NCBI RefSeq assembly: GCF_027568515.1
Contig: NZ_JANKZF010000019.1
Span: 1-64,000, forward strand
Direction of reading: 5' to 3'
Source: Arthrobacter sp. HY1533
Lineage (GTDB): Bacteria; Actinomycetota; Actinomycetes; Actinomycetales; Micrococcaceae
Length of the DNA: 64,000 nt
Of this stretch, positions 7,108 through 63,907 are shown one piece after another. The notes below the pieces were generated by a model. That model was not told the DNA's origin, made no database searches, and worked only from the letters and a program-made list of their open reading frames with translations. The translations under genes and the position numbers were made by a program. How positions within the stretch are numbered: the stretch's first letter is position 1; the number at the start of each line of letters is the position of its first letter.

Positions 7108-7490
7108 GGATAGGGCAGCTGGGCAACCGCGCGTCACGCAAGTGGCTCGAGGAACGTCCGGGCTCCACAGGACAGGGTGGTGGGTAACGCCCACTCGGGG
7201 TAACCCGCAGGACAGTGCCACAGAGAATAGACCGCCCGCACGGCTTCGTACCGGAGCGGGTAAGGGTGAAACGGTGGTGTAAGAGACCACCAGTGCCCCA
7301 GGTGACTGGGGGAGCTAGGTAAACCCCACCCGGAGCAAGGCCAGACAGGGCATGATTGAGGGCTGTTCGCCCGAGTGTCCGGGTAGGCTGCTAGAGAGCG
7401 TCGGCAACGGCGTTCGTAGATGGATGGTTGCCTCTCCGCCGCGGGCAACTGCGGCGGACGACAAAACCCGGCGTACAGGCTGCCCTATCC
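7108..7490 (+). ncRNA. rnpB: RNase P RNA, class A
   Basis: This is the catalytic RNA that trims tRNA 5' leaders. Hallmarks are all in order: GAGGAACGTCCGGGCTCC near 7150, ACAGAGAATAGACCGC near 7220, GGTAAGGGTGAAACGGTGG near 7260 and ACAAAACCCGGCGTACAG near 7461. The ends pair as the P1 helix (GGATAGGGCAG at 7108 with CTGCCCTATCC at 7480), which fixes both boundaries to within a few bases. A TACACT at 7094-7099 is a plausible -10 box. Confidence 0.96.
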
Positions 7491-7620
7491 AACAATCTTG
7501 CTGCTTTCGCAGTGCCTGTGGACAACTCCGGGCACGCGGCCGCGCGGCTCCCTAGACTTGTTCCATCACGAATTCCCCGGCGCCTTCGACGCCGGACGTG
7601 CGGGCAGGGGCAGCCAATCC

Positions 7621-8457
7621 ATGGGACGGCACGAGCAAGACGGACAGGGCACAGCGCTGCGCCGCCCCGGACCGCCGGTCCGCCCCGTCCAACAACAGCC
7701 CCGCCCACCGTGGCGCATGGCTTCCGTACTTGCGGTCCTGCTGCTCGTGGCGCTGGGCGGCTGGCTGCACACCGCCGGACGCTGGCCCTTTGACCACGAC
7801 GCCGGCACGCCGCCCGTGTTCAGCACCCCACCTCCGGGGCTGGGCCGCCCCGTGGTGGCAGTTGGCCCCGGCACAGCCCTTGTTGCCCTGTTGGAGACGC
7901 TGCCGGTCAAGGGAAAGGCGCCCTCCAGCAGTTACGACCGCTCCTTGTTCGGCGAAGCCTGGGTGGACGCCGACGCCAATGGCTGCGACACCCGCAACGA
8001 CGTCCTGCGCCGGGACCTGGCCGGGGCAACATTCACTGACGGTTCCTCCTGCCTTGTGGCCTCCGGAATCCTCAACGAGCCGTACACAGGCCGGCAAATC
8101 CATTTTCGGCGCGGAAAAGACAGTAGCGCCCTGGTCCAAATCGACCATGTGGTGGCCCTCGGCAACGCGTGGCAGAGCGGGGCTGCGGCCCTGACGCCAG
8201 AGCAGCGTGCAAGCCTGGCCAACGACCCACTGAACTTGCTGGCCGTGGACGGGCCGGCCAATCAGGAGAAGTCCAGCTCCGACGCCGCCACGTGGTTGCC
8301 GCCCTCGAAAAAGTTCCGCTGCCACTATGTGGCCCGCCAAATCTCGGTCAAGGCCGCCTACCACTTGTGGGTTGCCCCGGCGGAGAAGGCCGCCATGGTG
8401 CGCGTGCTGGGACTGTGCCCGGAACAAGAAAGCCTGCCCTCCGGCTACCTCCCGTGA
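7621..8457 (+). CDS. Membrane-anchored or secreted HNH nuclease (DUF1524, GmrSD C-terminal type)
   Basis: The 278-residue product has one hydrophobic helix at about 34-49 that would act as an anchor or uncleaved signal. An extracellular nuclease domain follows. The His-Me motif is IDHVVALGNAW (Asp175-His176), followed by NDPLNLLAVDGPANQEKSS, the usual DUF1524 pattern. Family members are often secreted nucleases in Actinobacteria, probably for nutrient scavenging; substrate is not known. The frame is open into rnpB, so I set the start at the ATG at 7621, preceded by AGGGG. It is convergent with prfC. Confidence 0.8.
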   Translation: MGRHEQDGQGTALRRPGPPVRPVQQQPRPPWRMASVLAVLLLVALGGWLHTAGRWPFDHDAGTPPVFSTPPPGLGRPVVAVGPGTALVALLETLPVKGKAPSSSYDRSLFGEAWVDADANGCDTRNDVLRRDLAGATFTDGSSCLVASGILNEPYTGRQIHFRRGKDSSALVQIDHVVALGNAWQSGAAALTPEQRASLANDPLNLLAVDGPANQEKSSSDAATWLPPSKKFRCHYVARQISVKAAYHLWVAPAEKAAMVRVLGLCPEQESLPSGYLP

Positions 8458-43581: not shown

Positions 43582-45187
43582 GTAAATGCCTGCTTCCCCA
43601 ACCCGGCCTCCACCTGCAGGGGCAGTGAGGGCAAAAACTAGCCCGTAAATGGCCGTCCAGACGATCCGGCGCAAACACCGCTCACCCAGATCTTCGACTG
43701 TACTTGGAGGGCGGGGGCCGTGGAATAGACCTGGATCCTGTCTGTCGCCTGTGCCGAAGGGGCAGTTGGGGTGTCTGCGTACCAGCACGTATGTAGCCTT
43801 TTCGTGGGTGGCCCTCCAGCTTCTGCAGCGCGGCCAGGCCTGTTCTGGGGTCACCATCATGGGGACTTCCAGGCTGCGCATGAGCTGACCCGCAGCTGGA
43901 AGTCCGCAAAGGTGATGATGTTGAACCGCTCTTTGTGGACCTGGCCCGCTTCGTCAATGTCTGTCTTCAGCGCTGAACGGCACCATCGGCGCGCCCCGAC
44001 AAGTTCGATGCCGTGGGAAAAGTACTCCTGAGCTATCAAGGCAACTGCTCCACCTCGATGTGGGACGCGAACAGGTCGGCAAAGGACGTCACGATCCTCG
44101 TCGCCGACAACGCGGCCACCGTGATCCAGACAAGCAGTTGAGAAATTCTCGGCGGATACACACTCGACGCCGCAAAGAACCGCCAGCCCCAAGAGAAAAA
44201 ATTCCATGGCGCCAGCTGTGGAACGATCTCTAAGAACGACGTCTCGGGACATGTATGAATCTTGTCCCGCGACATCACATGTGTGCTGGGGCGGGAATTG
44301 AACCCGGTACCAAGAGAAACTCAGGAGTCTCATGCCTTCTGTCGTCATTCAATGCCAAAAAAGCCAATTTCCGGGGATCTTCAGGTCAGTGGAGTCCATC
44401 GATATGCCATGATCAATGGTTGGTTTTCGTTCAAAAACGTGAGTAAAACGTGACGATTCCCTCCAGCGTAGCGTCGGAGCTGCTGTCTGGCGGCCGTTTG
44501 CGGGTTCATCGGCATGGTGGACGGCATGTCGTTGGTTGTCAATGTGGCTCCGTCAATGATCAACAATTCACGTTGTTTGATGCGTGGGTTCGGCCCCACC
44601 CGTCGTGTGTCCACTATCGGCCGTGAATCGTGCTTCTTGTTGACTATTTGCTGAGGGAATGGAGCACCATCCACCCATATCGGGTCGTCATTTGCCTCCG
44701 GCCGGCCGACCTGGTCAGCCCAAAATGGAATCAATTTCATGCCGAACTGCGAACGGTATAAGAGCGAACAGGCTGTAGACCGGAGAGTATCCGCGGGGTT
44801 TGCCGAGGACCGAATAGGTGAGAATGATGACGGAACCAATGGCGTCAGGAACAAAAATGGAGTTAGAAGCTGAGGGCCCCGCAGCTCTTGGCCGTGGGAC
44901 CCTCAGTAGTCCATAACAGGGAACCTGCCCCTGACTTTTACTGCAGGTTACTACTGTGAACAGGCGCGAAAAAATAAGTGTTGAGGCGGAACTCGCATTG
45001 GCTGAATGGAGCGGCAGATCTGAGTGGTGGATGCTGTATTCGGGCTTTTCCGTACACAATGCAACGGCGGGACCACAATGATCGGTAGCATTCCATCGCT
45101 AAACTGTCATCACACTGCAGCTCACCAGACAGCGCTAGCGGACGTGAACAACCTCTCATTCTTAGAGTTGCCGCAACGGCCCTGGAG
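43582..45187. other. Gene-poor junction region
   Basis: About 1.6 kb where I find no reading frame with a convincing product. GC falls compared with the genes to the left. Short frames here look like shadows or remnants. A tRNA-like T-arm stretch lies near 44288-44335 on the minus strand. This is where the backbone appears to give way to accessory DNA. Confidence 0.5.
44288..44335 (-). pseudogene. Possible tRNA or tmRNA 3'-end remnant
   Basis: On the minus strand this stretch reads ACCGGGTTCAATTCCCG, a four-pair T-stem around the T-loop TTCAATT, preceded by a GAGA/TCTC helix. The 3' end (CCCAGCACA) lacks a good CCA and no anticodon arm can be drawn, so it is not a working tRNA. It may be the remainder of an integration site; only the T-arm is supported. 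Confidence 0.25.
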
Positions 45188-46539: not shown

Positions 46540-48336
46540 ATGGATATGGAGCTGCAAGGCGTGACCGCCGTCAATGAAAGAATTCTCAGGTGCCGTCGGC
46601 TCAGAGCCTACGTTTTGGCGAATGACCGCACACCATTGACCGACGGACACATTGACGTCTACGCAGATGCTGAAAAGATCTCCAACGCGAACTTCCAGCA
46701 CCGCGTAAATGTCCAGGTGAAGGCCCGAGAACACAAAGCCGGGAAGAATCCGCCGAAGTCATTCGCAGTAAAGGCGAACGACCTTCGAGGGTTCTTAGAA
46801 CTGCGCGGCGTTCTCTACTTCGTTGTGTACATCAACAAAAAGACACTTCAAACTAGGTTGATGTACGCACAACTCACGCCGTTCAAGATCGAGGGCCTAC
46901 TTAAGAAAATTCCGGCTAGTGGAAGTGTCAGCATCCGCCTCGAACCATTCCCCCACGATCCCTCGGAAATCGAGAAAATCATTCGATTTGCGGCAAACGC
47001 ACAATCAGAGGACCCGCGGGCTCGAATTGACTTCAATTTGCTCCGAGATCCGGTAAGTATCACCCTGCATTCTGACAAGACGCTTGACCTTTCAGCTCCT
47101 CTGACCTTAACGCGAGATAGGGCAAACTACTCCGTTTCCTACCAATTCGCCGACGGTTCCAGAGTTTTCGTTGACCACGAATTAGCGATCTTTCCGGAGG
47201 ACTACTACGGGAGATACACCAACGTGCGTGTTGAAGCTGGAGACTTTGAGTACGCGAATCCGCGCCTGAGGAAATTAGACGACTCCACGGTTGAGGTCAC
47301 TCTCTCCAAGGGAATAGTAATGACCATGTCTAGGGAGGGATCGACGCTCAAATCGCCAGGTAGCATCAGAGTGTCCATGCGTCCCACACTCGAAGAGCGC
47401 CTACACGACCTTGGCTTTTACTTCACACTCCTAGAAAACCAGTCTCTCAAGATCAATGGCACCCTTCACGCAATGCTCGTAACTCCCAATGAAGAAACCA
47501 GTGATCTCCGTAGCCACTTTCACTTCCTAGAAACTATCGCCAAACTATGTGGACGTCTAGGCGTAGACACCCGACTCGTGGACCTTGAATCTCTTGAGGA
47601 GTACAGAGGAAAGCAGCTGCTGGCCCTTGAGGGCGTGCTACTTCACGGTGAAACACTCTCCTTGGAACATCAACACCTAGGAAGAATCTCCCAACCTATC
47701 GGAGAGTGGAATCTCCAATTCATCGTGCTCAATGATCCAACAACTAGTACATGGCGCTTGTACGGGACATTCGATCCAAACATGCCAGGACACATCGTTT
47801 CTCAATCTACGGACACGCACGATGCCCCCGCCATCGTCACTGTCTACGACGTGATCGAATACATGTACCTTCCATTCACACTGAACCTGCACCTAGAGAA
47901 TTTGGTCGCTGCATACCAAAAGGTCTCAGGCCACGCAGGAACAGATGATCGAGCCAATGAAACAGTTCTAAATCTCCTTCGCGCTGCCGACGACGTTCCT
48001 CGTAGACGAGTAGAATTTCTCACCGCCGCAACCGAACTCAACTCTTGGCTCCAAGCCAAGTACGGAAAACAACCCCATTATCTAATCAATGGATGGCAAA
48101 TCGCCGCACGCACAGGAGATCTTTCCTCACTTGACAAAGAATCCATTCGAACACTCAAACACCAAGCTACACGAGAAGATAAAGAAGGCGCCAGAGAAAT
48201 AGAACTTGCCTGCGCCATCCTTCTCCAAGATGATGCAGAGAGAGATTTCTGTTTGAAGAAACTCGACACTCGTCTAGCCAAACAATTCAAAACATGGCCT
48301 ATTTGGCGCCTAACAGAAACTGAACCCCGGCTTTGA
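46540..48336 (+). CDS. Large protein with a putative PD-(D/E)XK nuclease-like N-terminus (DUF4365-like)
   Basis: The 598-residue product starts with a segment matching the DUF4365-like restriction-endonuclease fold: DGHIDVY (Asp39) followed by FQHRVNVQVKARE (Gln59, Lys61), giving D-Xn-QxK. The remaining 500 residues do not match a family I know; a C-terminal helical part (about 450-598) holds many charged residues. Codon use is AT-richer than the backbone. A helicase or NTPase motif is absent, so if it is a nuclease effector its sensor must be in the unknown part. A phage-defence role is inference from fold and island context. Confidence 0.55.
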   Translation: MDMELQGVTAVNERILRCRRLRAYVLANDRTPLTDGHIDVYADAEKISNANFQHRVNVQVKAREHKAGKNPPKSFAVKANDLRGFLELRGVLYFVVYINKKTLQTRLMYAQLTPFKIEGLLKKIPASGSVSIRLEPFPHDPSEIEKIIRFAANAQSEDPRARIDFNLLRDPVSITLHSDKTLDLSAPLTLTRDRANYSVSYQFADGSRVFVDHELAIFPEDYYGRYTNVRVEAGDFEYANPRLRKLDDSTVEVTLSKGIVMTMSREGSTLKSPGSIRVSMRPTLEERLHDLGFYFTLLENQSLKINGTLHAMLVTPNEETSDLRSHFHFLETIAKLCGRLGVDTRLVDLESLEEYRGKQLLALEGVLLHGETLSLEHQHLGRISQPIGEWNLQFIVLNDPTTSTWRLYGTFDPNMPGHIVSQSTDTHDAPAIVTVYDVIEYMYLPFTLNLHLENLVAAYQKVSGHAGTDDRANETVLNLLRAADDVPRRRVEFLTAATELNSWLQAKYGKQPHYLINGWQIAARTGDLSSLDKESIRTLKHQATREDKEGAREIELACAILLQDDAERDFCLKKLDTRLAKQFKTWPIWRLTETEPRL

Positions 48337-48716: not shown

Positions 48717-49667
48717 ATGATTAGTTCTGCGGATTTAGCTTCTCCGTCCGAGTTGCGTCAGTACAAGCTGATTGGGCGAATTCTTGAGGTATCGGAAGAA
48801 ACTGGCCATCGTCAGGTACCGACAGAATCGCTCTACAGGGGCGGGCACCTGCTCAATGCTGATGAGCGGGCAATGGACGCTGACTTGGCCGCCTTCAAAG
48901 CGCGCGGCTGGGTCGACTACTTCGCTTCGGTGGCGGGTATCGACGAAGTAGTTCTCAAGCAGCCAGGCGCAGATGCCGGTGAGGCATTCGAGAAGTTCAG
49001 GACCAATCCGAGAAACAGAGTCCCCGCAGCTCGGGATGCCCTTGTGCAGTGGCTATATGACGAATACCTTGACGGCAATTCTTACCCCGTGATCAACAGG
49101 TTCTCTGAAAGTGCCTTCGAGAACTTCTATGGCGTTCCTTTCACCTGGCCCGAAGTCATCCGTGCATGCACGTGGTTGCACTCTGAGGGATTCATCGCGG
49201 GTACTAGGACGAACGCGGGCGTTGTCCCTCGGCCTAGCATCACCCCGAAGGGCATACGCTTTGTTGAAGGTAGGGCATCTGTCAATGATCAGCACAACGG
49301 AGGAGTAACTACGGTGACCAACAATCACCTCAAGGTCGAGGGATCTAGCGGCGTCAACGTGGCATTGAATAGCCAGAACGTCAATCAGTCCAACTCGGTG
49401 ACGATTGAACAGATCGAACAGACCACCAAGTTCATCGGGAGTGCCAGGTCACTGGTGCCAGCTCTGGGTCTAGATGGGGATCAGCAAGAGCGCGCCTTGC
49501 AGGTCATTGGTGAGCTTGAAGTTGAGTCCACCTCGACCGCTCCAAACCAGGGCCGGCTGAAGCAACTGATGGGAAAAGTCTTGGAAATCGTCGTAACAGG
49601 AACTGCCACGGGAGTAGCAGATGCTCTTGTGGCTATGGGCAATGGCGTCATTGGCTCTTTGGGGTAG
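48717..49667 (+). CDS. Hypothetical protein with winged-helix-like N-terminus and Asn/Ser-rich linker
   Basis: The 316-residue protein starts with two helical sections (about 10-150) that include a winged-helix-like WPEVIRACTWLHSEGFIAG...ITPKGIRFVE pattern. A low-complexity linker rich in Asn, Val and Ser (about 190-230, with VNVALNSQNVNQSNSV) follows, then a helical C-terminus with a hydrophobic Gly/Ala segment (about 285-310). Proteins with this linker are frequent in accessory islands, sometimes with phage-abortive C-termini. I recognise no family with confidence. It lies on the same strand as the structured element upstream. Confidence 0.55.
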   Translation: MISSADLASPSELRQYKLIGRILEVSEETGHRQVPTESLYRGGHLLNADERAMDADLAAFKARGWVDYFASVAGIDEVVLKQPGADAGEAFEKFRTNPRNRVPAARDALVQWLYDEYLDGNSYPVINRFSESAFENFYGVPFTWPEVIRACTWLHSEGFIAGTRTNAGVVPRPSITPKGIRFVEGRASVNDQHNGGVTTVTNNHLKVEGSSGVNVALNSQNVNQSNSVTIEQIEQTTKFIGSARSLVPALGLDGDQQERALQVIGELEVESTSTAPNQGRLKQLMGKVLEIVVTGTATGVADALVAMGNGVIGSLG

Positions 49668-50827: not shown

Positions 50828-52006
50828 ATGGGGTGGCGAGGTATGAAAATTACATCGAGATTACAGGATAATCGCATTGGTGCCGTAAATGTCTTGGCCG
50901 AGATGTCGCTTTCCGAGTATGCAGATCTGATTTCTGATAATCTTTCCAAGAATGAATTTCAGCGACGCCGCGTGAGTTCTTCGAAAACAGTCTATGCACT
51001 GCTGAAGGATGACATGCGCCGTGGATGCGTAATTCCCCCTTTGGTGTTAGCGCTCACTGAGGAAAGTGTTGAGATAGATAGACTGAGTAATGCTGAACTC
51101 GAGGCACTTATTGTTGATCAGGCATCCCGGCTCGTAATTCTAGATGGATTGCAGAGAACACACACAATAATTGATCTCCTGCAAGAGATTGATAAAATAG
51201 ATCCGCAGAGCTCAGCTACGCCTGTTGGTGATATGCCGGTTCGCGTTGAAGTTTACGTCGGGTTAAACCGCCTAGGTATCCTATACCGAATGCTCACCCT
51301 TAACACCGGACAGACGCCGATGTCCCTTCGTCAACAAATTGAAATGCTCTATTTGGATTACCATGATCCTGAATCTCGCATTGACCTCATACGGGAGGCT
51401 GATAATAGGATTGTAAAGAATCCTCATGAGTACAACTTCAAGGATGTTGTTGAGGGCTTCAATGCATATCTAAATCGAGATGAGCTTCCAATCGACCGTA
51501 CGAGTTTGTTGGAAAATATCCGAAGCCTCGAGAAACTTTCGAAGGAAAACCAAGACTCTGATGTATTCCGCAAGTATTCGGAGATATTGGACGATTTTAT
51601 ATTCCAAGTTGTTGACCTTGGTGGAGATGCAGAGCTGGCTGAAGACGATCTTATTGGGTCGAGTCCATTTGGTCGAACAGTAAATCAAGTTTTTAAGAAA
51701 CCTCAAGCAATGTCAGGGCTTGGAGCTGCTTTGGGCAAGCTTATTGACCGGAACGTATTCAATAATCTTGATGAGGCATCTGAAGCTATCGAAAACATTA
51801 AGATGGATAACCCCGAAGAGTTTCTGGTCGAAATAAACCGCTCACTGTCTTGGCTGAAAAACCATACAACAAAAATTGGCAATGCTCAAAGAACGTTTTT
51901 TACTTTCTATTTCCGGGAGCTCTTAAATCCAGAAACTGATAGTTATCTCGATCTTCAGTCGGCCGCCACAACGGCCCTGCGTAAATACCAAGACCAGAAT
52001 ATATAG
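50828..52006 (+). CDS. DGQHR/ParB/DUF262-like protein of a two-gene defence-like operon
   Basis: The 392-residue protein has the pattern NEFQRRRVSSSKTVYALLKDD then IPPLVLAL (about 68-75) then LVILDGLQRTHTI (Asp106-Thr111). The order of a QRR-type strand, IPPxVL and DGxQR is that of DGQHR (DndB-type), ParB-like and DUF262 (GmrS) domains, which bind or hydrolyse NTP or DNA. The LTLNTGQTPMS segment (about 157-167) also fits the DGQHR layout. The C-terminal 200 residues are helical. Its stop is four nt before the HEPN-containing partner. Codons are AT-rich against the backbone. Either ATG at 50828 or 50843 could start it. Confidence 0.6.
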   Translation: MGWRGMKITSRLQDNRIGAVNVLAEMSLSEYADLISDNLSKNEFQRRRVSSSKTVYALLKDDMRRGCVIPPLVLALTEESVEIDRLSNAELEALIVDQASRLVILDGLQRTHTIIDLLQEIDKIDPQSSATPVGDMPVRVEVYVGLNRLGILYRMLTLNTGQTPMSLRQQIEMLYLDYHDPESRIDLIREADNRIVKNPHEYNFKDVVEGFNAYLNRDELPIDRTSLLENIRSLEKLSKENQDSDVFRKYSEILDDFIFQVVDLGGDAELAEDDLIGSSPFGRTVNQVFKKPQAMSGLGAALGKLIDRNVFNNLDEASEAIENIKMDNPEEFLVEINRSLSWLKNHTTKIGNAQRTFFTFYFRELLNPETDSYLDLQSAATTALRKYQDQNI

Positions 52007-52010
52007 GCGC

Positions 52011-53156
52011 ATGGCAATCAAAGTGGGAGTTTTAGACGACGCTTGGACCGTGGATTTTGACGGGCTTGACTTTGTTGCTACCGATTCGGCTTCCGGTGTT
52101 GAAGTTCGCATCTCGTCTCCCTTGAATCTTGATGCGGGCTTTGCGGATGATTCATACACTGTGCATACTTTCCTCTTTAAGGGACTTTCGGAGAACTCAA
52201 CATTTGACGTATCGGTAAAGGGAGGTGGCCGTAATTTTGCACTTTTGACTCCAGCAAATGCTGTGGGGTCAGTTGATCACGACAGGGCCGGGAAGGCGTA
52301 TTATGCCAAGTGTGCATATGTGATCATTCGAGATATTCTTGGGCAAAAATTGGCTGGAGATCCGCAGTTTTTTGAGCCGTATGCAGGAATCAATGGACCT
52401 ATTCCGTTCTCAGATCTATTTCATGACGACACTTGTTTTCTATTAGTTGACAACGCCGAAGCCAGCAAAGTTAAGAATTTTAGTTTGACCAAGATAGTAC
52501 CCAGTCTTTTGGCTAATGGATTTGTTCCTGTTGACGTTTGTAATCCTCAGGAGCTAGCTTGGAGGAGTCCAATCGAGTTAGATACTAAATCACTGAAGGT
52601 ATCGCTAATTTCTGACGATATTGGTGACCCTGAATTGATTGGTGATCTATGCTCGCTTGCTGTGAAGGCAAGTGGATCCTCGATTATGCAGTTTTTCTAT
52701 TTGTATCAAATATTCGAATACTTAATGGAAAGTGTTCTGAAGCACAGGCTTCCAGAGGTTGCGATAGAGATGCTAAGGAAAATTGAAAATGGATCCGGTG
52801 ATCTGTACGATGATTATTCGCTACTAGCTGAGGTCATGCGAGAGAAAGAGAGGCTCCAATTGCTCGTGGGCAAGTACTCCGATTGCCAGTCAAGTTTGGG
52901 CTCCCTCGCCAGTGTTTCGCTTGACTTCATGAGGTCTGTTAATTTCAAGATTTCAGGCGAAATGTCAGGTGTGAAGGCTGTTTATGCCGTTCGGAATTTC
53001 CTGTTTCATCAAGCTAGGAATCTGCCCGTCCATGGAGAGTCGAAACTGGATGCGGTCGTTACTGCCTTAGCTCAGTTTATTCCGGAGCTCCTTGCGACTT
53101 ATAAATATCCAAAACACACAACTGTCTGGCCACTAATGCCGGCAGTTCCGTCGTGA
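52011..53156 (+). CDS. HEPN-motif protein, partner of the DGQHR-like gene
   Basis: The 381-residue protein has an N-terminal ~180 residues of unrecognised beta-rich fold and a C-terminal helical bundle. RNFLFH (Arg328-His333) is an exact RX4H, with N after R, the signature of HEPN ribonucleases such as those in Abi and toxin-antitoxin systems. Its gene starts four nt after the upstream stop codon, and codon bias is shared, so both were acquired as one unit. The HEPN catalytic dimer could be an RNA-cleaving effector; activity is inferred. Confidence 0.6.
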   Translation: MAIKVGVLDDAWTVDFDGLDFVATDSASGVEVRISSPLNLDAGFADDSYTVHTFLFKGLSENSTFDVSVKGGGRNFALLTPANAVGSVDHDRAGKAYYAKCAYVIIRDILGQKLAGDPQFFEPYAGINGPIPFSDLFHDDTCFLLVDNAEASKVKNFSLTKIVPSLLANGFVPVDVCNPQELAWRSPIELDTKSLKVSLISDDIGDPELIGDLCSLAVKASGSSIMQFFYLYQIFEYLMESVLKHRLPEVAIEMLRKIENGSGDLYDDYSLLAEVMREKERLQLLVGKYSDCQSSLGSLASVSLDFMRSVNFKISGEMSGVKAVYAVRNFLFHQARNLPVHGESKLDAVVTALAQFIPELLATYKYPKHTTVWPLMPAVPS

Positions 53157-53345: not shown

Positions 53346-54542
53346 CTATTCACCAGATTCTGGTATATTCAGTTGATCCCCAAAGGCTTGCAGTATCTCA
53401 GTATTGTCCGGTGCCTCGTGCGTCTTTTGGACGTAATGCTTGCTCGTAATCTGCTCGCTGGAATGCCCGAGCTGCGCCGTCGCCGCGGCCATGCCCTGGG
53501 TGTTGGCCAGGATGGTCCCCACGGACTTCCGAAAAGTGTGGGGCGTGACCCAGTCAATGCCGACAGCTTTCCTTGCGTCGCGCCATTGCTTGCGAAACCC
53601 GTTAGGGTCCCGAATGGTCAAGGTGCTGGACGGGAACACCAGATCAAGGTCATTCTGGCGAACTGGATCAGCTTGACGCCTGCGCAGCATCTCGACGGCG
53701 AAGGGCGGCAGGAAGTAGCGTTGCCGTGAGTTAGCACTTTTGGGGTGGTCTTGGATTCTGAGCCCGTTCTTGCCCCGAACGTTGATGACTGTCCCGCGAA
53801 TGGTGACGGTTGGCTTCTCGGCGGCAAGATCAACGTCGGACCACCGAATGGCTAGCGCCTCGCCAATCCTAGCGCCGGTGGCTAGCATGATGTCGACGAC
53901 GTCGAGGATGTCCTTTTCGTGCAAACCGTTCTGCCGCCCGGTTGGTTGCTGCCAGGCATAGACGTCGTGACGGAGTTTGACCACCTCGTCGATGGTCAAT
54001 GCTCTAACTTCTTTGCTGCTGCTGGTGGGTATGCGGGCGACCTCACGGAGCGGATTAGCGGGGGCTGCACCATGGCGTGTAGCTAGGGACAGCATGCCAG
54101 TGAGCAGTGTCTTAGACATTTTGGCTGTTGCATTGCCGTGTTTGGTTCGTACACCTTTGAGGAACTTATCCAGGGTGGAGACGTTGGCTTCACGGATGGT
54201 TAGGTTGCCAACGCCGGGCAGGATGTAGGTGTCTATGATTTCCCGGTAGCGTCGGCGTGTATTGGCGGCTCTGCCGAGGTCTTCGAATTCTAGCCACCAG
54301 AATTTGGCAAGTTCGCTCATGGCCATGTCGGGGCTGATCACGTCATCGGTGGGTGGCAGCATCGCGTTCAACTTCGCCAGAAGGGTGGCTTCGGCTTGTG
54401 CCCCTGTTGGCCCGGTTGATTGGTACATGCGGGGCTTCCCGTCGTAGCCGCGCATGGTTGCCCGGGCCCTCCATGTGGTTGGCCCGAGCTTCCGGCGGGT
54501 TACTTTTCCCCACGTCCCGAGTGGTGTTTTTGCTCTAGCCAA
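53346..54542 (-). CDS. int: Tyrosine site-specific integrase
   Basis: The 398-residue recombinase integrates and, with Xis, excises the element. After an N-terminal SAM-like DNA-binding domain (about 70-160), the catalytic domain has GARIGEALAIRW with the first Arg, HTFR (His335, Arg338), GH (His360) and the tyrosine nucleophile Tyr370 in KHYVQ. The length matches the pSAM2-type integrases. The start is best at TTG 54542, which overlaps the xis stop by eight nt; a long upstream open frame is antisense to nothing known. The product should act near an adjacent att site at or below 53.35 kb. Confidence 0.93.
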   Translation of the reverse strand: MARAKTPLGTWGKVTRRKLGPTTWRARATMRGYDGKPRMYQSTGPTGAQAEATLLAKLNAMLPPTDDVISPDMAMSELAKFWWLEFEDLGRAANTRRRYREIIDTYILPGVGNLTIREANVSTLDKFLKGVRTKHGNATAKMSKTLLTGMLSLATRHGAAPANPLREVARIPTSSSKEVRALTIDEVVKLRHDVYAWQQPTGRQNGLHEKDILDVVDIMLATGARIGEALAIRWSDVDLAAEKPTVTIRGTVINVRGKNGLRIQDHPKSANSRQRYFLPPFAVEMLRRRQADPVRQNDLDLVFPSSTLTIRDPNGFRKQWRDARKAVGIDWVTPHTFRKSVGTILANTQGMAAATAQLGHSSEQITSKHYVQKTHEAPDNTEILQAFGDQLNIPESGE

Positions 54543-54756
54543 TGGGGTCTTCCGTGGTGGCGAGCCATGCGTTGAAGTCCGTGCGGCTGATACGAAGGTG
54601 GCGTCCGATCCTGTGAGCCCTCGGGCCCGCGTGCTTGACGCGCCACTGATAGAAGGTTTGCTCAGGAATCTGCAGCTCATGGCAGATCTCCTTAGGCGTC
54701 ATCCATTCGTCTACGAACGCAGGGATCGACGGTGCATGGTTTGGCTGGTCGGTCAT
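54535..54756 (-). CDS. xis: Excisionase / helix-turn-helix protein
   Basis: The 73-residue protein has a MerR/HTH_17-type DNA-binding domain (MTPKEICHELQIPEQTFYQWRVKHAGPRAHRIGRHLRISRTDFNAWL, about 19-64), the layout of recombination directionality factors. It overlaps the integrase start by eight nt, so the pair is translationally coupled. Overlap makes Int synthesis depend on Xis translation. Confidence 0.88.
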   Translation of the reverse strand: MTDQPNHAPSIPAFVDEWMTPKEICHELQIPEQTFYQWRVKHAGPRAHRIGRHLRISRTDFNAWLATTEDPIG

Positions 54757-57252: not shown

Positions 57253-57975
57253 ATGCGCGGAGTATCAGCATGGAACAGATACCTGCCCCGTTCCCGGCGG
57301 CAGTGGTTTCTGATCGCAATACTGGGAACTCTCACCGGCGTGGTTATGGCGCTGTTTTGGCTACCAAGCACCAGTACGTCTCAACGGGCCACGAGTGTGC
57401 CGACATCCCCACCCCAGGCAGGCCAGACGGCAATAGGGCCAGGTCCTGCTGCCCTTGTAACCGAGGCGCCGGTTGGTGTGGTGTTGTCGCCGGGGGAGCC
57501 GCAGACTCTCGATTTCACGGCGTATGCCGAGAACACAGCCCGTGCGCTGTACACCTGGGACACACGTACCTCAACTTATACGCAGACTTATGCGCATGTG
57601 CGCAGCTGGTGGATCGTCCTGCCTGACGGGTCGAACCCGCTCACCGTGTATACACAAGAGTTAGAGGGAACCGGAATCAACTCCGCGGCATTCGCTCAAC
57701 TCTCCGCCTACGGGGCGTACCGGACAGCCACCGTCATCCAGACCAGCTGCGATGACCAGCTGGCCCAGGTGAGGGACCATCCGGCCCCTTGGATCGGGCT
57801 GCATGTCTGCACCATGACGCTCAGCGTCACCGACCGCTCCACGGTGGAACCCCACAAGACGGCATACCGCGTTCCGGTCAGTGTCATGGTGAACTGCCCA
57901 CCGGCGGCAACGGCTCCGGCACATCGTTGCGCGCTGGCAGGTTTTTACACCTCCGCTAACAGAATCGTCTACTGA
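57253..57975 (+). CDS. Membrane-anchored surface protein of the T4SS operon
   Basis: The 240-residue protein has one N-terminal transmembrane helix (about 18-36) then a Ser/Thr/Pro-rich linker and an extracytoplasmic domain (about 70-240) with several cysteines (SCDDQ, HVCTM, NCPPA, HRCAL). The topology is that of VirB8/TcpC-like assembly factors, but sequence similarity is not evident. AAAGGAGG sits at perfect spacing to the ATG, the first strong ribosome site of the operon. Its TGA overlaps the ATG of the NlpC/P60 gene by one base. Confidence 0.65.
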   Translation: MRGVSAWNRYLPRSRRQWFLIAILGTLTGVVMALFWLPSTSTSQRATSVPTSPPQAGQTAIGPGPAALVTEAPVGVVLSPGEPQTLDFTAYAENTARALYTWDTRTSTYTQTYAHVRSWWIVLPDGSNPLTVYTQELEGTGINSAAFAQLSAYGAYRTATVIQTSCDDQLAQVRDHPAPWIGLHVCTMTLSVTDRSTVEPHKTAYRVPVSVMVNCPPAATAPAHRCALAGFYTSANRIVY

Positions 57976-59135
57976 TGCCTGCGGCAGCCCTGGCCACGAT
58001 CGCGAAAGCGCGGCTGATCCAGAGAGTACTTGCCGCGCTGGTAGTGGTGGTCCCTGTAGGGATGGCCGCCCTGCTCGGCGGGACCAGCATCCTCGTCGCC
58101 CAGATCGCGGGTACAAACACTTCGTGCACGTCAGCACCCCAGGAATCGGCGTTCGTCGGACCGTCCTTGCAACCAGTGGCATCGCTGAGTAACGGTGTTG
58201 GGAGCCTGACTCTTCCGGGGCCCGACGGCGTATCCCTGACGCTAGACCCTGAGCAGCAAAGCACCGCCGGTAGCTACCTGTCCGTGGGCCAGTCTCTGGG
58301 TGTGTCGGCGAAGGGGATTCAGATTGCCATCATGGTCGCTCTCCAAGAATCCGGGCTCAGGATGCTGGCCAATCCTGCTGTCCCCGCATCGCTGGGCATG
58401 CCCCATGACGGTCTGGGCTATGACCATGATTCCCTTGGGTCAGCCCAACAACGGCCCAGTGCTGGGTGGGGAAGCATCCAGGAACTGATGATTGCCTCCT
58501 ACAATGCCGAAGCGTTCTTTGGTGGCCCGCGGGGGCCCAACCACGGGTCACCTCGCGGGCTCCTGGACATCCCAGGGTGGGAATCGATGGGTCTGGGGCA
58601 GGCGGCCCAGTCCGTGCAGGTGTCCGCGTTCCCGGAACTGTACGAACGCTGGGGGCCCACCGCCCTCACCATCATGGCGTCCGTCACCGGGACGGGCCTC
58701 CGGCAACCATGCCTGCAACCAGCCCCAGTAGAGGACCCCGCAGCACCGCCGGTTCCGGCGGACCTGAGCGCGACCAGGCATGCCATTCTCCACCATGCCC
58801 AGGAAGGCGTGGGCGGCAGTTACGTGTGGGGCGGCACCGCGTTCAAGGCGTGGGACTGCTCCGGTTACGTGCAATGGATCTATAACCAGGTGGGGATTGC
58901 CCTGCCTCGCACAGAACAGTGGCTGGCCGGGCACACCACGACCATGCCGCAGCCAGGCGATTTGGTGGTCCAGAACCCGGATGGGCCAAACCACTGGGGC
59001 CACGTCGGCATCTACGCGGGGGCAGGGATGATGTACAGCGCCCTGAATCCCTCGGTGGGCACGCTGCTCCACCCCGTGAGCTGGAATCCCGGCACCCAAT
59101 ACTTCGACCTTCTAGGACCGGCACCGGGTAACTGA
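57975..59135 (+). CDS. NlpC/P60 peptidoglycan hydrolase of the conjugation system
   Basis: The 386-residue protein has an N-terminal membrane helix (about 15-45), a lysozyme-like section (about 88-235, LGVSAKGIQIAIMVALQESGLRML), and a C-terminal NlpC/P60 domain with C295 in WDCSGYVQW and H343 in HWGHVGIY. It should open the cell wall for the secretion channel, the VirB1/TcpG role. It overlaps the previous gene by one base. Confidence 0.9.
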   Translation: MPAAALATIAKARLIQRVLAALVVVVPVGMAALLGGTSILVAQIAGTNTSCTSAPQESAFVGPSLQPVASLSNGVGSLTLPGPDGVSLTLDPEQQSTAGSYLSVGQSLGVSAKGIQIAIMVALQESGLRMLANPAVPASLGMPHDGLGYDHDSLGSAQQRPSAGWGSIQELMIASYNAEAFFGGPRGPNHGSPRGLLDIPGWESMGLGQAAQSVQVSAFPELYERWGPTALTIMASVTGTGLRQPCLQPAPVEDPAAPPVPADLSATRHAILHHAQEGVGGSYVWGGTAFKAWDCSGYVQWIYNQVGIALPRTEQWLAGHTTTMPQPGDLVVQNPDGPNHWGHVGIYAGAGMMYSALNPSVGTLLHPVSWNPGTQYFDLLGPAPGN

Positions 59136-59238
59136 TGTTCGACGGCAAACCTAGGTCATGCGGGTTGGGGCCGGGTGGTGCATGGAAGTGGAGAAGCAAA
59201 CGCACGGTCTGCCTCTAGCATCCGGATGGAGTAGTGTC

Positions 59239-59526
59239 ATGAATTTCGCGCCCGTAGACCCCGGAATCGTACCCAACGGCAATTTCCCGTTTCTGGACTC
59301 GCTCAAGCAGATTGGTGGAGGAATCCTGGTCGGTGCCTTCATCATCATCGCCATTGTCGCGATCATTGGTGCCGCCATGCTGTTGGCCGGCAAACTCAGC
59401 CAATCATCCAGACTCGCCTCCGGCGGTGGGATGATCCTGCTGTGGACCGGCCCCATCGCCGCAATCCTAGGCGGAATCAACGGCTACATCCTGTGGTCAC
59501 AAACCGCCTTCCACCTCGGGTTCTGA
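59239..59526 (+). CDS. Small integral membrane subunit (DUF6112-like)
   Basis: The 95-residue protein has two hydrophobic helices (about 24-52 and 60-85), preceded by a short N-terminus with NFAPVDPGIVPNG. Size, topology and position match the DUF6112/TrbC-like pilin-sized subunits found next to VirB6-like genes in actinobacterial ICEs. GGAG lies nine bases ahead of the ATG; a GTG or ATG further up is in frame. The TrbL-like gene follows after nine nt. Confidence 0.75.
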   Translation: MNFAPVDPGIVPNGNFPFLDSLKQIGGGILVGAFIIIAIVAIIGAAMLLAGKLSQSSRLASGGGMILLWTGPIAAILGGINGYILWSQTAFHLGF

Positions 59527-59535
59527 GCCTCCGCC

Positions 59536-60981
59536 ATGCAACCGCTGGAATGCACCTTCGGGGGATGGTGGCCCCTGGGGTGCGGCGTACTGTCGGCGGC
59601 CACGGACACGGTCACCTCGAGCATCGGCGGCTTCTTTGCCGGAGTCTTGGAGAGCATCGCCTCTTGGTTGTGGTCTTTCATCTCCGGCGCGTTCGGTGTC
59701 TCGGATGTCGATGATTCCCAGTGGACGGCGGTCCAGGGATTGACGAGCTGGTGGATTGTCGTCATGATGACACCTTTGGTGGCCGTCATGATTCTCCAAC
59801 TAATCTCGGGCCTGATCGCGCAACAACCCCGCCGGATTTGGCGGGCACTGATCGGCGGATTTGTGGCCGTGCCCATCGTCGGCGGTGCCGTGTATCTCAT
59901 GCAGGCTCTGACCCATGTCAGCGACAGCGCCTCAGCGGCCCTGTTGGACACCATGGGACCAGACCCCTATGTGGTCTTCATGCGACTCTTTGGATTTCAA
60001 CGAGGCCCAGCGGGGTCCGGTCAAGCGTGGATCATGAACCCGATGGGAGGCCAGCCCTCAACCACGACCGAGATCACCGGTACCATCGTGATCACTGTCT
60101 TGGCAACTCTGATTGTGTGGGTGCTGGCGTTCATCCTGATGTGTTCGATGATCTTCCGCTCTTTCGCCTTGATCGTGCTGGCAGCGGTTGCCCCGGTGGC
60201 CCTGATGTTGATGCCGTGGGAGAAGACAAAGTCCTGGGCAGGGCGGTGGTGCGAGCTCGTCGTTGCATTACTGCTCGCGAAACCGTTGGCCGCGACTGTT
60301 CTGGCTGTGGCCGTGAAACTGTACGCGAATTCCACCTCTTTTGCCGGGATGGCTGCCGGTGCCGTGGGTATGACGCTGGCCTGTGCGGCACCGCTGATGG
60401 CTCTGAAACTTGTCGGGTTCGCCGGTGGAGAACTGGCGGCAGCCGCCCAAACGGCCGGTGGAGGCCACCTTACCCACACGGGGGCCAGCTTTGCGGGGCG
60501 ACAGCTGGGGCAACAGCTCCGTGGACACCACAAGCTCACAACGGGTAGCAGTTTGAAAAGTCCAAAGGTAGTGGAGTCAAGTGCGAAGCCGGAGACGCTT
60601 CCCGTCAGAAAGCCTGCTGCGTCTGGGGCGACATCCTCGCCCGATAAACCCAAGATTCAACAACAACGCCCGCAGGCGCCAACAACTCAGTCTGCTGCCA
60701 CCTCGGCTCCGGGTCAGGCATCGACAACCCCGACTAGAAAGCAGTCAACAGGCCAGCCGCGCGCGCCCCAGCCGCCACCGCCGGGGAAACCCACCCCGAC
60801 AGTGCAGAGCACTGTGACAACACCGCCCTCGGCTAGCCCCGGCGTGCCGCGCCCAGGAGCTGAGACATCGAGTTCTGGCACCGCACGCCCAGGTTCACCG
60901 TCCGGGCCGAAGCCGCGGCCACCGGCGTCCCCGCCATACAACCCACCCATCAGACCGCCCCACACTGGAGAGTCATCATGA
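59536..60981 (+). CDS. VirB6/TrbL-like channel protein
   Basis: The 481-residue protein has about eight transmembrane helices in its first 320 residues (WWIVVMMTPLVAVMILQLI, IVITVLATLIVWVLAFIL and others), the polytopic pattern of VirB6/TrbL inner-membrane channels. About 150 C-terminal residues are Pro/Ser/Thr-rich and disordered. It sits between the DUF6112-like gene and the SCO6880 gene, whose start overlaps its stop (ATGA). Confidence 0.82.
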   Translation: MQPLECTFGGWWPLGCGVLSAATDTVTSSIGGFFAGVLESIASWLWSFISGAFGVSDVDDSQWTAVQGLTSWWIVVMMTPLVAVMILQLISGLIAQQPRRIWRALIGGFVAVPIVGGAVYLMQALTHVSDSASAALLDTMGPDPYVVFMRLFGFQRGPAGSGQAWIMNPMGGQPSTTTEITGTIVITVLATLIVWVLAFILMCSMIFRSFALIVLAAVAPVALMLMPWEKTKSWAGRWCELVVALLLAKPLAATVLAVAVKLYANSTSFAGMAAGAVGMTLACAAPLMALKLVGFAGGELAAAAQTAGGGHLTHTGASFAGRQLGQQLRGHHKLTTGSSLKSPKVVESSAKPETLPVRKPAASGATSSPDKPKIQQQRPQAPTTQSAATSAPGQASTTPTRKQSTGQPRAPQPPPPGKPTPTVQSTVTTPPSASPGVPRPGAETSSSGTARPGSPSGPKPRPPASPPYNPPIRPPHTGESS

Positions 60982-62450
60982 CTGAAGACAGTAACGTCTT
61001 GCAAGCGGTGAGTTTTCCCCGGCACGAACGCCGCGGCATCATCTTGGGGTTGCAGTGGTACCAACTTGCTCTCGCCGGAGGCGGAATCCTGATTGCAGGG
61101 GTGTCCTCGGCCATTGGCGGCCCTGCCGGATTCCTGGGTTCCAGCCCGGCCTGGATCTTCCTGTTGCTCTTCGGTGTCCTGCAATATGCGCGAACGCCGT
61201 ATCCCCTCTGGGCGCTGACCCTGACCCGATTTCTACTCCGGAAGTTGACCGGGCAAACCGCCTACTTCCTGCCCACCGAGGACCCCGTACCGGTCGGTAC
61301 TCTGGTTCTTCCCGGCGGGCTCGCGTCCTTGGTCATTCATCGAACTGTCTACGGTGAGTGCTTTGTCGTGGATGCCCAGGCCCATGAGGCCTTCGCAGTG
61401 CTGCGCTGCCGGGCCGGCGCTTTTGCCCTGCTCGACGATGACGACAAGGCCTACGCCGTCCAAGGCTGGTCCCGGGTGCAGGCCGCCCTGGCCAAACGGC
61501 CCGTCGTGGCCAGGATTGCCATCCAGGACCACACCGTCCAGTTCCCGGCCACAGCCCTCCACGACTATTACGACCAGCAAGTGACCTCCCGTGGCGGGGA
61601 GACACCTGTTTCGGACTGGGGTGACAGCTCCTACAAGGACCTCATCGCCGCAGCCGGGACAGCATCAAGCCATGACATTCTCCTGACACTGGTGCTGAAC
61701 ACCGCCAAGGCCAGGCGCCGGATCCATGACGCCGGCGGCGGCGCCCTCGGGCTGGAACACACGCTCCGCTCAGAAATCCATGCCCTGCGCACCGGGCTCA
61801 AAACCCACGGGGTGATCGTGGAGGAATGGCTCGGAGACAGGAGCTTCGCCGCGGTCCTGCGCGGGGCGTTTGACCCCGAATCGGTCATGCGCATCTCCCA
61901 ACGTTCTGGGGACTTCAAGGGAGTCGACCCGAGTCAAGGCGGCCCCACGGCGTTGGAGGAACACTGGTCCTACATTCGCACCGACAGCGGCTTCCACCAA
62001 ACCTTCTGGATCGCGGAATGGCCCCGCCAAAAAGTCTTCCCAGGCTTCCTGCACCCTCTGGTATACGTCGGCGGCTTCCGCCACACCGTCACCCAGGTCA
62101 TCAAGGCCATCCCCACCGACCAGGCGCTGAAGGACATCCGCTCTGCCCAGGAAGCCCACGAAACCAGGCGCCGGATCAACACAAAGTTTGACCGCCCCAC
62201 CACACGTGAACAACGCGCCGAGGAAGATGAAGTCCAACAGCGCGAGGAAGAAATCGTCGCAGGCCACGGTGACGTCCGCCCCGCCGCGTACATCACCATC
62301 ACCGGTGGCACGCTGGAAGAACTCTCCAGCCACCGCCAGGAACTCGAATCAGCAGCCGCCAGCGCCTTCGTCGACCTGAGACTCCTCGTAGGCGAGCAAT
62401 GGCCGGCCTTCATCGCCGGGGGACTGCCCCTGGGAAGAGGACTGAAATGA
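60978..62450 (+). CDS. SCO6880-family protein (PrgI/VirB3-like N-terminus, VirB4 N-terminal half)
   Basis: The 490-residue protein has two transmembrane helices near the N-terminus (about 24-45 and 52-68), the PrgI/VirB3 module, and then a long soluble part that resembles the N-terminal half of VirB4 ATPases, without Walker motifs. It is the partner of the ATPase coded next, from which it is separated by an ATGA overlap. The split VirB4 arrangement is known from actinobacterial conjugation systems. Confidence 0.85.
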   Translation: MTEDSNVLQAVSFPRHERRGIILGLQWYQLALAGGGILIAGVSSAIGGPAGFLGSSPAWIFLLLFGVLQYARTPYPLWALTLTRFLLRKLTGQTAYFLPTEDPVPVGTLVLPGGLASLVIHRTVYGECFVVDAQAHEAFAVLRCRAGAFALLDDDDKAYAVQGWSRVQAALAKRPVVARIAIQDHTVQFPATALHDYYDQQVTSRGGETPVSDWGDSSYKDLIAAAGTASSHDILLTLVLNTAKARRRIHDAGGGALGLEHTLRSEIHALRTGLKTHGVIVEEWLGDRSFAAVLRGAFDPESVMRISQRSGDFKGVDPSQGGPTALEEHWSYIRTDSGFHQTFWIAEWPRQKVFPGFLHPLVYVGGFRHTVTQVIKAIPTDQALKDIRSAQEAHETRRRINTKFDRPTTREQRAEEDEVQQREEEIVAGHGDVRPAAYITITGGTLEELSSHRQELESAAASAFVDLRLLVGEQWPAFIAGGLPLGRGLK

Positions 62451-63907
62451 AGACCACCCAGCAATCCGTCACCTTCATTCCCAGCAATGAGTCCCGTAGC
62501 GCCAGGCGGCAACGCCGGGCGCTGCAGGGCCAAGCCGTCGCCGGTCAGCAGGAACCCTTCTGGAAGAAGCTGGGACTGTTGGTCGGCGACGAGGAAGGAC
62601 CAGCCGCCGCGCAACATCTGCAGCCATTCGGTCCTCATTCCCTCAAGGGCCCGCACCGGCTGCACCCGGCTCCTCACCGCGCCTCGACCATGACCTTCGC
62701 CGCCGCGTATCCCTTCATCACTGAATCCGGGCTCGGCCACGAAGGCACCTACATCGGCAGCGATGTTTTCGGCTCCGGCGCCTTCTCCTACGATCCCTGG
62801 GTGCTGTACGAGAAGGGCGTTATCAGCGGCCCCTCCATCGTGATCATTGGCACCGTGGGGACAGGGAAGTCCATGTGCGCGAAGTCCCTCGTAGCCCGCT
62901 CCATCACCCTGGGCCGCAAAGCCGCCGTCGCCTCCGATCCCAAAGGGGAATGGGTTCCCGTGGCGAAAGCTGTGGGTGGCAAGGTCATCTCCGTGGGTCC
63001 GGGGCGGCCCACTAGGGTCAACCCTCTCGACGCTGGTCCCCGATCCCGGGACCTATCGAACGCGCAATGGCAGGCCGTGGTCCGGCAACGACGCCGACAG
63101 CTGCTCGTCGCCCTCGTATCCCTGATGAGACAGGGGGTTCCGATGCTTCCGGTCGAACACACGGCCTTGGACATGGCATTGACCGAGGCCGTTGCCGCCA
63201 ACGAGACCCCGACACTGCCCATGGTCCTGGAATACCTGCTCAACCCCTCGAAGGAGACCCGGGAACTCGTCGGCCCCGACGGTGGCCGGGCCGTCGCTCA
63301 TTCCCTGCGGCGCACCGTGTCAGGGGACCTGGAGGGCATGTTTGATGCACCCTCTACAGTCTCCTTTGACGCTGACGCGCCGATGATGGTCATGGACACC
63401 TCAGCGCTGATCGGGGCCTCGGAACAGGCGCTCTCCCTCGCCGCGGCCTGCGGGGCGACCTGGTTGGAAGCGGCCATCACCAACCCCGACGGTGGCAAGC
63501 GCATCGTGGTCTACGACGAGGGATGGCGCATGCTGGCTGACCCGTACATGCTGGTCAAAATGAGCGAACAGTGGCGGCTCGCCCGTACCTACGGCATCTC
63601 CAATCTGCTGATCATGCACAAAGTTGCAGACCTGAATGAGATTGGCGACAGCACCAGCGGCCACCGCCAAAAAGCCCTCGGGCTACTGACCGAGGCGGAC
63701 ACCCGGATAATTTACCGGCAAAAGCACGACTCCATGCGGCTGACCAAGGACGCCCTCGGCCTCACCGAGGCCGAATGCGGCCAGGTTGAAGAACTGCCCA
63801 AGGGGGTCGGTCTGTGGAAGGTCGGCAACCGTTCCTTCATCGTCGCCAACCAAGTCACCAGCGATGAACTCACCGTCTTCAGCACCGATCACAGGATGAT
63901 GCCATGA
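62447..63907 (+). CDS. VirB4-type conjugation ATPase (ATP-binding half)
   Basis: The 486-residue ATPase drives pilus or channel assembly. Walker A is GTVGTGKS (135-142) and Walker B is IVVYDEGWR (Asp357, Glu358). NLLIMHKVADLNEIGDSTSG (about 384-403) is the sensor region. The ATG at 62447 overlaps the preceding TGA. The next gene's ATG overlaps its TGA by four bases, keeping the coupling chain. Confidence 0.9.
   Translation: MKTTQQSVTFIPSNESRSARRQRRALQGQAVAGQQEPFWKKLGLLVGDEEGPAAAQHLQPFGPHSLKGPHRLHPAPHRASTMTFAAAYPFITESGLGHEGTYIGSDVFGSGAFSYDPWVLYEKGVISGPSIVIIGTVGTGKSMCAKSLVARSITLGRKAAVASDPKGEWVPVAKAVGGKVISVGPGRPTRVNPLDAGPRSRDLSNAQWQAVVRQRRRQLLVALVSLMRQGVPMLPVEHTALDMALTEAVAANETPTLPMVLEYLLNPSKETRELVGPDGGRAVAHSLRRTVSGDLEGMFDAPSTVSFDADAPMMVMDTSALIGASEQALSLAAACGATWLEAAITNPDGGKRIVVYDEGWRMLADPYMLVKMSEQWRLARTYGISNLLIMHKVADLNEIGDSTSGHRQKALGLLTEADTRIIYRQKHDSMRLTKDALGLTEAECGQVEELPKGVGLWKVGNRSFIVANQVTSDELTVFSTDHRMMP

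Follow-up and report, generated by a model that had tools for sequence, protein, structure and literature searches.

The 64,000-nucleotide (nt) stretch of Arthrobacter sp. HY1533 analyzed here (contig NZ_JANKZF010000019.1, positions 1 to 64,000; hereafter, the window) carries two adjacent genes that their sequences identify as a divergent member of Dazbog, an already described anti-phage system. The second protein, DzbB, appears to end in a HEPN-type domain with a predicted ribonuclease (RNase) active site. This effector assignment is the useful part of the analysis, the system itself being already known: Dazbog is credited to Millman 2022 in PMC10952713, and reviews including PMC12409349 call its mechanism unknown or unclear (the literature is cited throughout from excerpts of the sources).

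The Dazbog gene pair and its distribution

The PADLOC profile for DzbA matched open reading frame (ORF) 1 with 460 bits (E = 1.7e-138; residues 6–390 of 392, profile positions 2–392 of 393), and that for DzbB matched ORF 2 with 164 bits (E = 1.3e-48; residues 20–365, profile positions 10–338 of 341). Because two adjacent genes match the profiles over nearly their full length, we identify the pair as Dazbog; the gene order, dzbA then dzbB, is also that of Dazbog. We regard it as a divergent member since DzbB scored only 164 bits and is 41–43% identical to the copies in two Arthrobacter genomes, the nearest in our genome scan (DzbA, 72–73%). Neither protein is named by NCBIfam above its cut-offs, and Pfam gave no match for the window DzbB. 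The features of the pair are as follows.

50828..52006, + strand: dzbA (ORF 1), 392 amino acids (aa), DUF262/GmrSD_N-like (ParB/Srx-type) protein, from PADLOC DzbA and Pfam GmrSD_N
51143..51157, + strand: DGLQR codons (DzbA residues 106–110), putatively corresponding to DGQQR, the motif of the DUF262 nucleotide pocket
52011..53156, + strand: dzbB (ORF 2), 381 aa, predicted beta-rich N-terminal part and helical, apparently HEPN-type C-terminal domain, from PADLOC and AlphaFold
52629..53105, + strand: predicted HEPN-type helical domain of DzbB (residues 207–365)
52992..53009, + strand: RNFLFH codons (R328-X4-H333), predicted RNase active site, from the invariance of R328 and H333

The initial annotation had proposed a defense role for these two genes, and the Dazbog profiles bear this out. 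As it had noted, the genes are separated by 4 nt and rich in A+T: the G+C content of the pair is ~44%, compared with ~65% in the window's left part, and no other stretch of the 64-kb window is as A+T-rich. The motifs it quoted, IPPLVL (residues 69–74) and LDGLQRT (105–111) in DzbA and RNFLFH (328–333) in DzbB, are also present. It had further called the operon new and stated that no described system pairs these proteins, which does not hold: Dazbog does so, and HEPN-ParB operons (2013 HEPN survey) and PD-T4-2 (PMC10952713) had been listed earlier. The start codon of dzbA may alternatively lie at 50843, because a Pseudomonas relative aligns from the methionine at that position.

When 84,980 species genomes were scanned, 95 DzbA loci were confirmed, and the counts below rest on the best 80 of them. 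Going by the record titles, their hosts include Actinobacteria, Proteobacteria, Bacteroidetes, Firmicutes, Cyanobacteria and others, with one archaeon (Methanimicrococcus). DzbB was found downstream of DzbA at 73 of the 80 loci, so the predicted conserved adjacency in other genomes was confirmed; this count treats L075 and L088 as pairs, even though the start of the matching ORF is 776 and 500 nt distant, respectively, and it also includes an incomplete DzbB where a contig ends (L031) and DzbB split over two ORFs (L071 and L076). Among the seven loci without a recognized DzbB, four (L040, L061, L066 and L094) reach the contig end within 399 nt, and two (L073 and L074) encode a 403-aa divergent partner with RNILYH (R-X4-H) that was missed by the 8-sequence profile. 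At the seventh (L043, Trichormus; 7339–8364), a transposase-like ORF follows dzbA and dzbB was not found. Across all collections, the gap between dzbA and dzbB was within −65 to +17 nt in 81 of 84 cases. DzbA and DzbB distances were correlated (r = 0.78, 77 pairs; none of 999 permutations was as high), and the two proteins thus co-diverge, in near-constant adjacency, at mean identities of 42% (DzbA) and 22% (DzbB).

Dazbog is rare. In the class of the window's host, DzbA was detected in 2 of 394 genomes (its own, and a second with a weak partial match) and DzbB in its own alone, and at the level of the phylum the PADLOC DzbB profile matched 2 of 296 genomes, one of them the window's own. A DNA search of 58 relatives (own genome included; five candidates scored per genome) gave no match to dzbA or dzbB in the 57 others among the matches listed, and parts of the island did match. 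The best plasmid match was Pseudomonas sp. DY-1 plasmid p.1, with adjacent genes (DzbA 57.6% and DzbB 29.4% identical), which is the only DzbB match among plasmid records. There, Dazbog lies inside a filamentous-phage-like element with Zot, TspB-type and capsid genes (L004, 9004–11378), which is partly annotated twice in the record, and the dzbA query matches two places. In Leifsonia (L025, 1452–5716), the pair adjoins two ORFs that, as read from the sequence, resemble an ATPase and a restriction-type nuclease.

At E = 1e-5, none of 50,697 phage records matched DzbA or DzbB, but the pair is present in IMG/VR viral contigs, so phages may carry it. The partner was found at seven of the first eight viral loci, the eighth being cut, and all six of eight more distant viral loci with downstream room carry a PADLOC-called DzbB (E = 1.2e-6 to 4e-60). 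At three of these distant loci (L102, L105 and L106) the profile matches only the C-terminal part of the partner, and for this reason the N-terminal domain of DzbB may be variable while the HEPN part is constant.

Domain assignments of DzbA and DzbB

Pfam GmrSD_N matched the window DzbA with 27.6 bits (E = 3.7e-6), below the gathering cut-off of 33.2, and all ten DzbA proteins scanned, the window's included (E up to 0.01; best E = 4.5e-8). The DUF262/GmrS-like part of the earlier assignment thus stands, whereas the DndB part does not: the Pfam DndB match (E = 0.0011) reached 18.6 bits against a gathering cut-off of 29.1, and the motif is DGLQR, not DGQHR. The latter marks DndB-type proteins. 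Residues invariant in all 77 aligned DzbA include N42, Q45, R46, D106-G-L-Q-R110, R154, N159, G161 and Q162. From its sequence, the window motif L-D-G-L-Q-R reads as a variant of the DUF262 motif (I/V)-D-G-Q-Q-R, which forms a nucleoside triphosphate (NTP) pocket (PMC10952713). Membership of the GmrSD type IV restriction enzymes was ruled out, as neither DzbA nor DzbB has a Pfam match to the DUF1524 nuclease domain at E up to 1.

For DzbB, 77 distinct sequences were aligned; ORFs shorter than 290 aa were excluded, as were three identical copies and five same-place loci. Of the 77, the profile supplied 76, and L073 was included manually once its RNILYH motif had been noticed. Only Tyr325, Arg328 and His333 are fully invariant among the 381 columns, a result to be read with the profile in mind, as its eight sequences all bear the motif and could favor relatives that do. 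E236, Q233 and F228 are kept in 76 of the 77, the remaining sequence being gapped. In a single 381-aa protein, the presence of R-X4-H is near chance (~0.4 expected by a rough estimate), and it is its conservation in all 77 distinct relatives that argues against a chance occurrence. HEPN domains have a polar residue, mostly N, D or H, following the arginine; the window DzbB has N329, and the residue is N in 59, C in 16 and S in 2 of the 77, so it is not universal. The R-X4-6-H motif of HEPN domains and a conserved acidic residue upstream (E236) are thus both found, and the Ex3[KR] motif, which is typical but not defining, was not, E236 being followed by Y-L-M-E in the window DzbB.

The HEPN fold proposed in the initial annotation was also checked by structure prediction, which gave a HEPN-like helical fold. 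AlphaFold modeled the full DzbB with a predicted local distance difference test score (pLDDT) of 93.5 and a predicted template modeling score of 0.90, and its C-terminal domain alone (residues 207–365) as a confident helical domain (pLDDT 95.6). The predicted helices span residues 224–259, 265–276, 278–287, 293–309, 320–337 and 340–362, and R328–H333 lies toward the end of the penultimate helix (320–337) of this all-helical bundle, as in HEPN. The best three solved-structure matches of the domain are two MntA-HepT entries and HI0074, and MtlR, counted as HEPN in the 2013 survey, is found at ranks 7, 8 and 10. When 51 of the 75 available C-terminal domains were scanned against Pfam, HEPN_Apea matched seven, with the lowest E-value among the matches listed (6.8e-5), followed by HepT-like (n = 2), HEPN_Swt1 (n = 1) and HEPN_MAE_28990 (n = 1).

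Several points limit this assignment. The hhalign comparison of DzbB with ApeA-type HEPN was not significant, the window DzbB itself has no Pfam HEPN match (the matches come from relatives only), and each line of evidence is weak when taken alone. Combining the invariant residues, the matches in relatives and the helical model, we conclude that the C-terminal domain of DzbB appears to be of HEPN type, as had been claimed. The HEPN row of the PMC10952713 excerpt lists PD-T4-2, PD-T4-5, PD-T7-3 and ApeA and does not list Dazbog; the assignment was likewise not found in the excerpts of Dazbog literature searched, and prior publication is possible. Another protein encoded in the same genome (contig C22, L112) has an HEPN_Apea match above the curated cut-off.

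The probable host element

The initial annotation had placed the pair in a mobile island, and the features below support this.

44289..44317, no strand assigned: att-like repeat, identical at 26 of 29 bases to contig 87195–87223, a segment of a tRNA-Arg gene
53346..54680, − strand: tyrosine integrase (Pfam Phage_integrase, E = 2.3e-17)
54535..54756, − strand: small HTH_17 protein (Pfam HTH_17, E = 5.5e-12), interpreted as excisionase-like
57975..63907, + strand: conjugation-type genes, i.e., NlpC/P60, TrbL/VirB6, EccE-like and AAA_10-type ATPase (ATPase matches below cut-offs)

The integrase and HTH_17 genes adjoin dzbA–dzbB, with the conjugation-type genes to their right. The G+C content drops at the att-like repeat, whose longest exact run with its partner, tRNA-Arg(TCT) (L119, 3195–3223), is 17, versus a maximum of 14 when contig 40001–80000 was resampled 100 times with a Markov model. 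Given the integrase, the HTH_17 protein, the conjugation-type genes and the att-like repeat in tRNA-Arg, Dazbog is likely, though not proven, to be enclosed in a ~43-kb integrative conjugative-type element at tRNA-Arg, from 44289 to contig position 87223.

Two further genes were observed upstream of dzbA. The region 46540–48336 encodes a protein of 598 aa that matches phrog_9827 and, below threshold, DUF4365, and the gene has 90–91% DNA identity in two genomes of the same genus; 48717–49667 encodes a 316-aa protein whose C-terminal part weakly resembles the PADLOC candidate PDC-M14B (E = 1.1e-4).

Possible mechanism and comparison with known systems

The explanation we favor, and consider reasonably probable, is that Dazbog is carried as cargo of the integrative element and that DzbA acts as a sensor through which DzbB, as a HEPN RNase, shuts down the cell. 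DzbA would be a DUF262-type nucleotide-binding sensor that binds NTP and responds to some mark of infection, perhaps DNA that a phage methylase has modified; it would then activate or release DzbB. The HEPN domain of DzbB, probably as a dimer (HEPN domains are typically dimeric RNases according to the literature excerpts), would cut RNA via Arg328 and His333, and this would stop phage multiplication, most likely through cell shutdown. Methylases can activate Dazbog by a mechanism described as unclear (PMC12409349). Whether Dazbog is more specifically a modification-sensing switch, in which the DUF262 NTPase senses the methylation that the phage places on DNA and, in response, licenses the HEPN RNase so that RNA, not DNA, is cut, seems to us almost evenly balanced, leaning slightly against.

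The main rival, which we rate as clearly less probable than the favored explanation, has toxin–antitoxin wiring: DzbB would be a constitutively toxic HEPN RNase restrained by DzbA, and infection would lift the restraint, which overlaps with the option of release above. The closest solved folds are those of the MntA-HepT toxin–antitoxin pair, dzbA and dzbB are coupled and co-diverge, and the Trichormus dzbA beside a transposase-like ORF, with dzbB not found, would be permissible for an antitoxin; loss of the DUF262 gene, however, abolishes resistance (PMC10952713), which fits an activator better than a restrainer. It is unlikely that DzbA is instead the main effector, as a ParB-fold NTPase or nuclease acting on modified DNA or by nucleotide depletion, with DzbB only a regulator or back-up. 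Although ParB-superfamily proteins have been described as nucleases and NTPases, DUF262 occurs in GmrSD-type restriction enzymes (PMC10952713) and DzbA is the better conserved of the two, the cutting domain of GmrSD is the separate DUF1524 (PMC10952713), for which DzbA has no Pfam match, and the residues that never vary in DzbB make up a catalytic-type motif, which would be needless in a mere regulator.

Less likely still is that DzbB uses its HEPN-like domain to bind nucleic acid or nucleotides without cutting. In some HEPN domains, e.g., those fused to nucleotidyltransferases, the motif has been lost and substrate binding is the presumed role (2013 HEPN survey), and the HI0074 entry is titled as the substrate-binding domain of a nucleotidyltransferase; such families lose the motif, however, while R and H are unvarying in the 77 DzbB. 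That the pair has no relation to any described defense system, as the low identity of DzbB to its sole plasmid match (29.4%) and its lack of a Pfam or NCBIfam name could have suggested, is already refuted by the adjacent, nearly full-length PADLOC matches.

The predicted HEPN active site makes the poorly understood mechanism of Dazbog directly testable at Arg328 and His333. If the proposal is true, a two-gene system present in one archaeal genome and in several phyla of bacteria would link the sensing of DNA modification to the cutting of RNA. Taken together with PD-T4-2, and with GmrSD and Menshen as the versions that use a DNase, DUF262 would then be a general sensor coupled in evolution to interchangeable nucleases.

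Among known systems, Dazbog has the same two proteins in adjacent genes, with its profiles matched over nearly their full length. PD-T4-2, an E. coli defense system placed under both DUF262 and HEPN in PMC10952713, has by that description the same two domain types, but PADLOC reported no such match for either window protein; the 2013 survey also places HEPN genes in an operon with ParB. GmrSD, BrxU and SspE have the DG-x-Q-R motif of DUF262 in common with DzbA, and there the sensing of modified DNA is coupled to a nuclease (PMC10952713). They carry a DUF1524 nuclease domain, whereas the window pair has no DUF1524 match and a separate protein that appears to be of HEPN type. ApeA shares the HEPN domain, HEPN_Apea being the leading Pfam family of DzbB relatives, but differs in that it is a single-protein system and in the non-significant profile comparison with DzbB. 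In MntA-HepT, the partner differs: MntA is a nucleotidyltransferase, whereas DzbA is DUF262-like.
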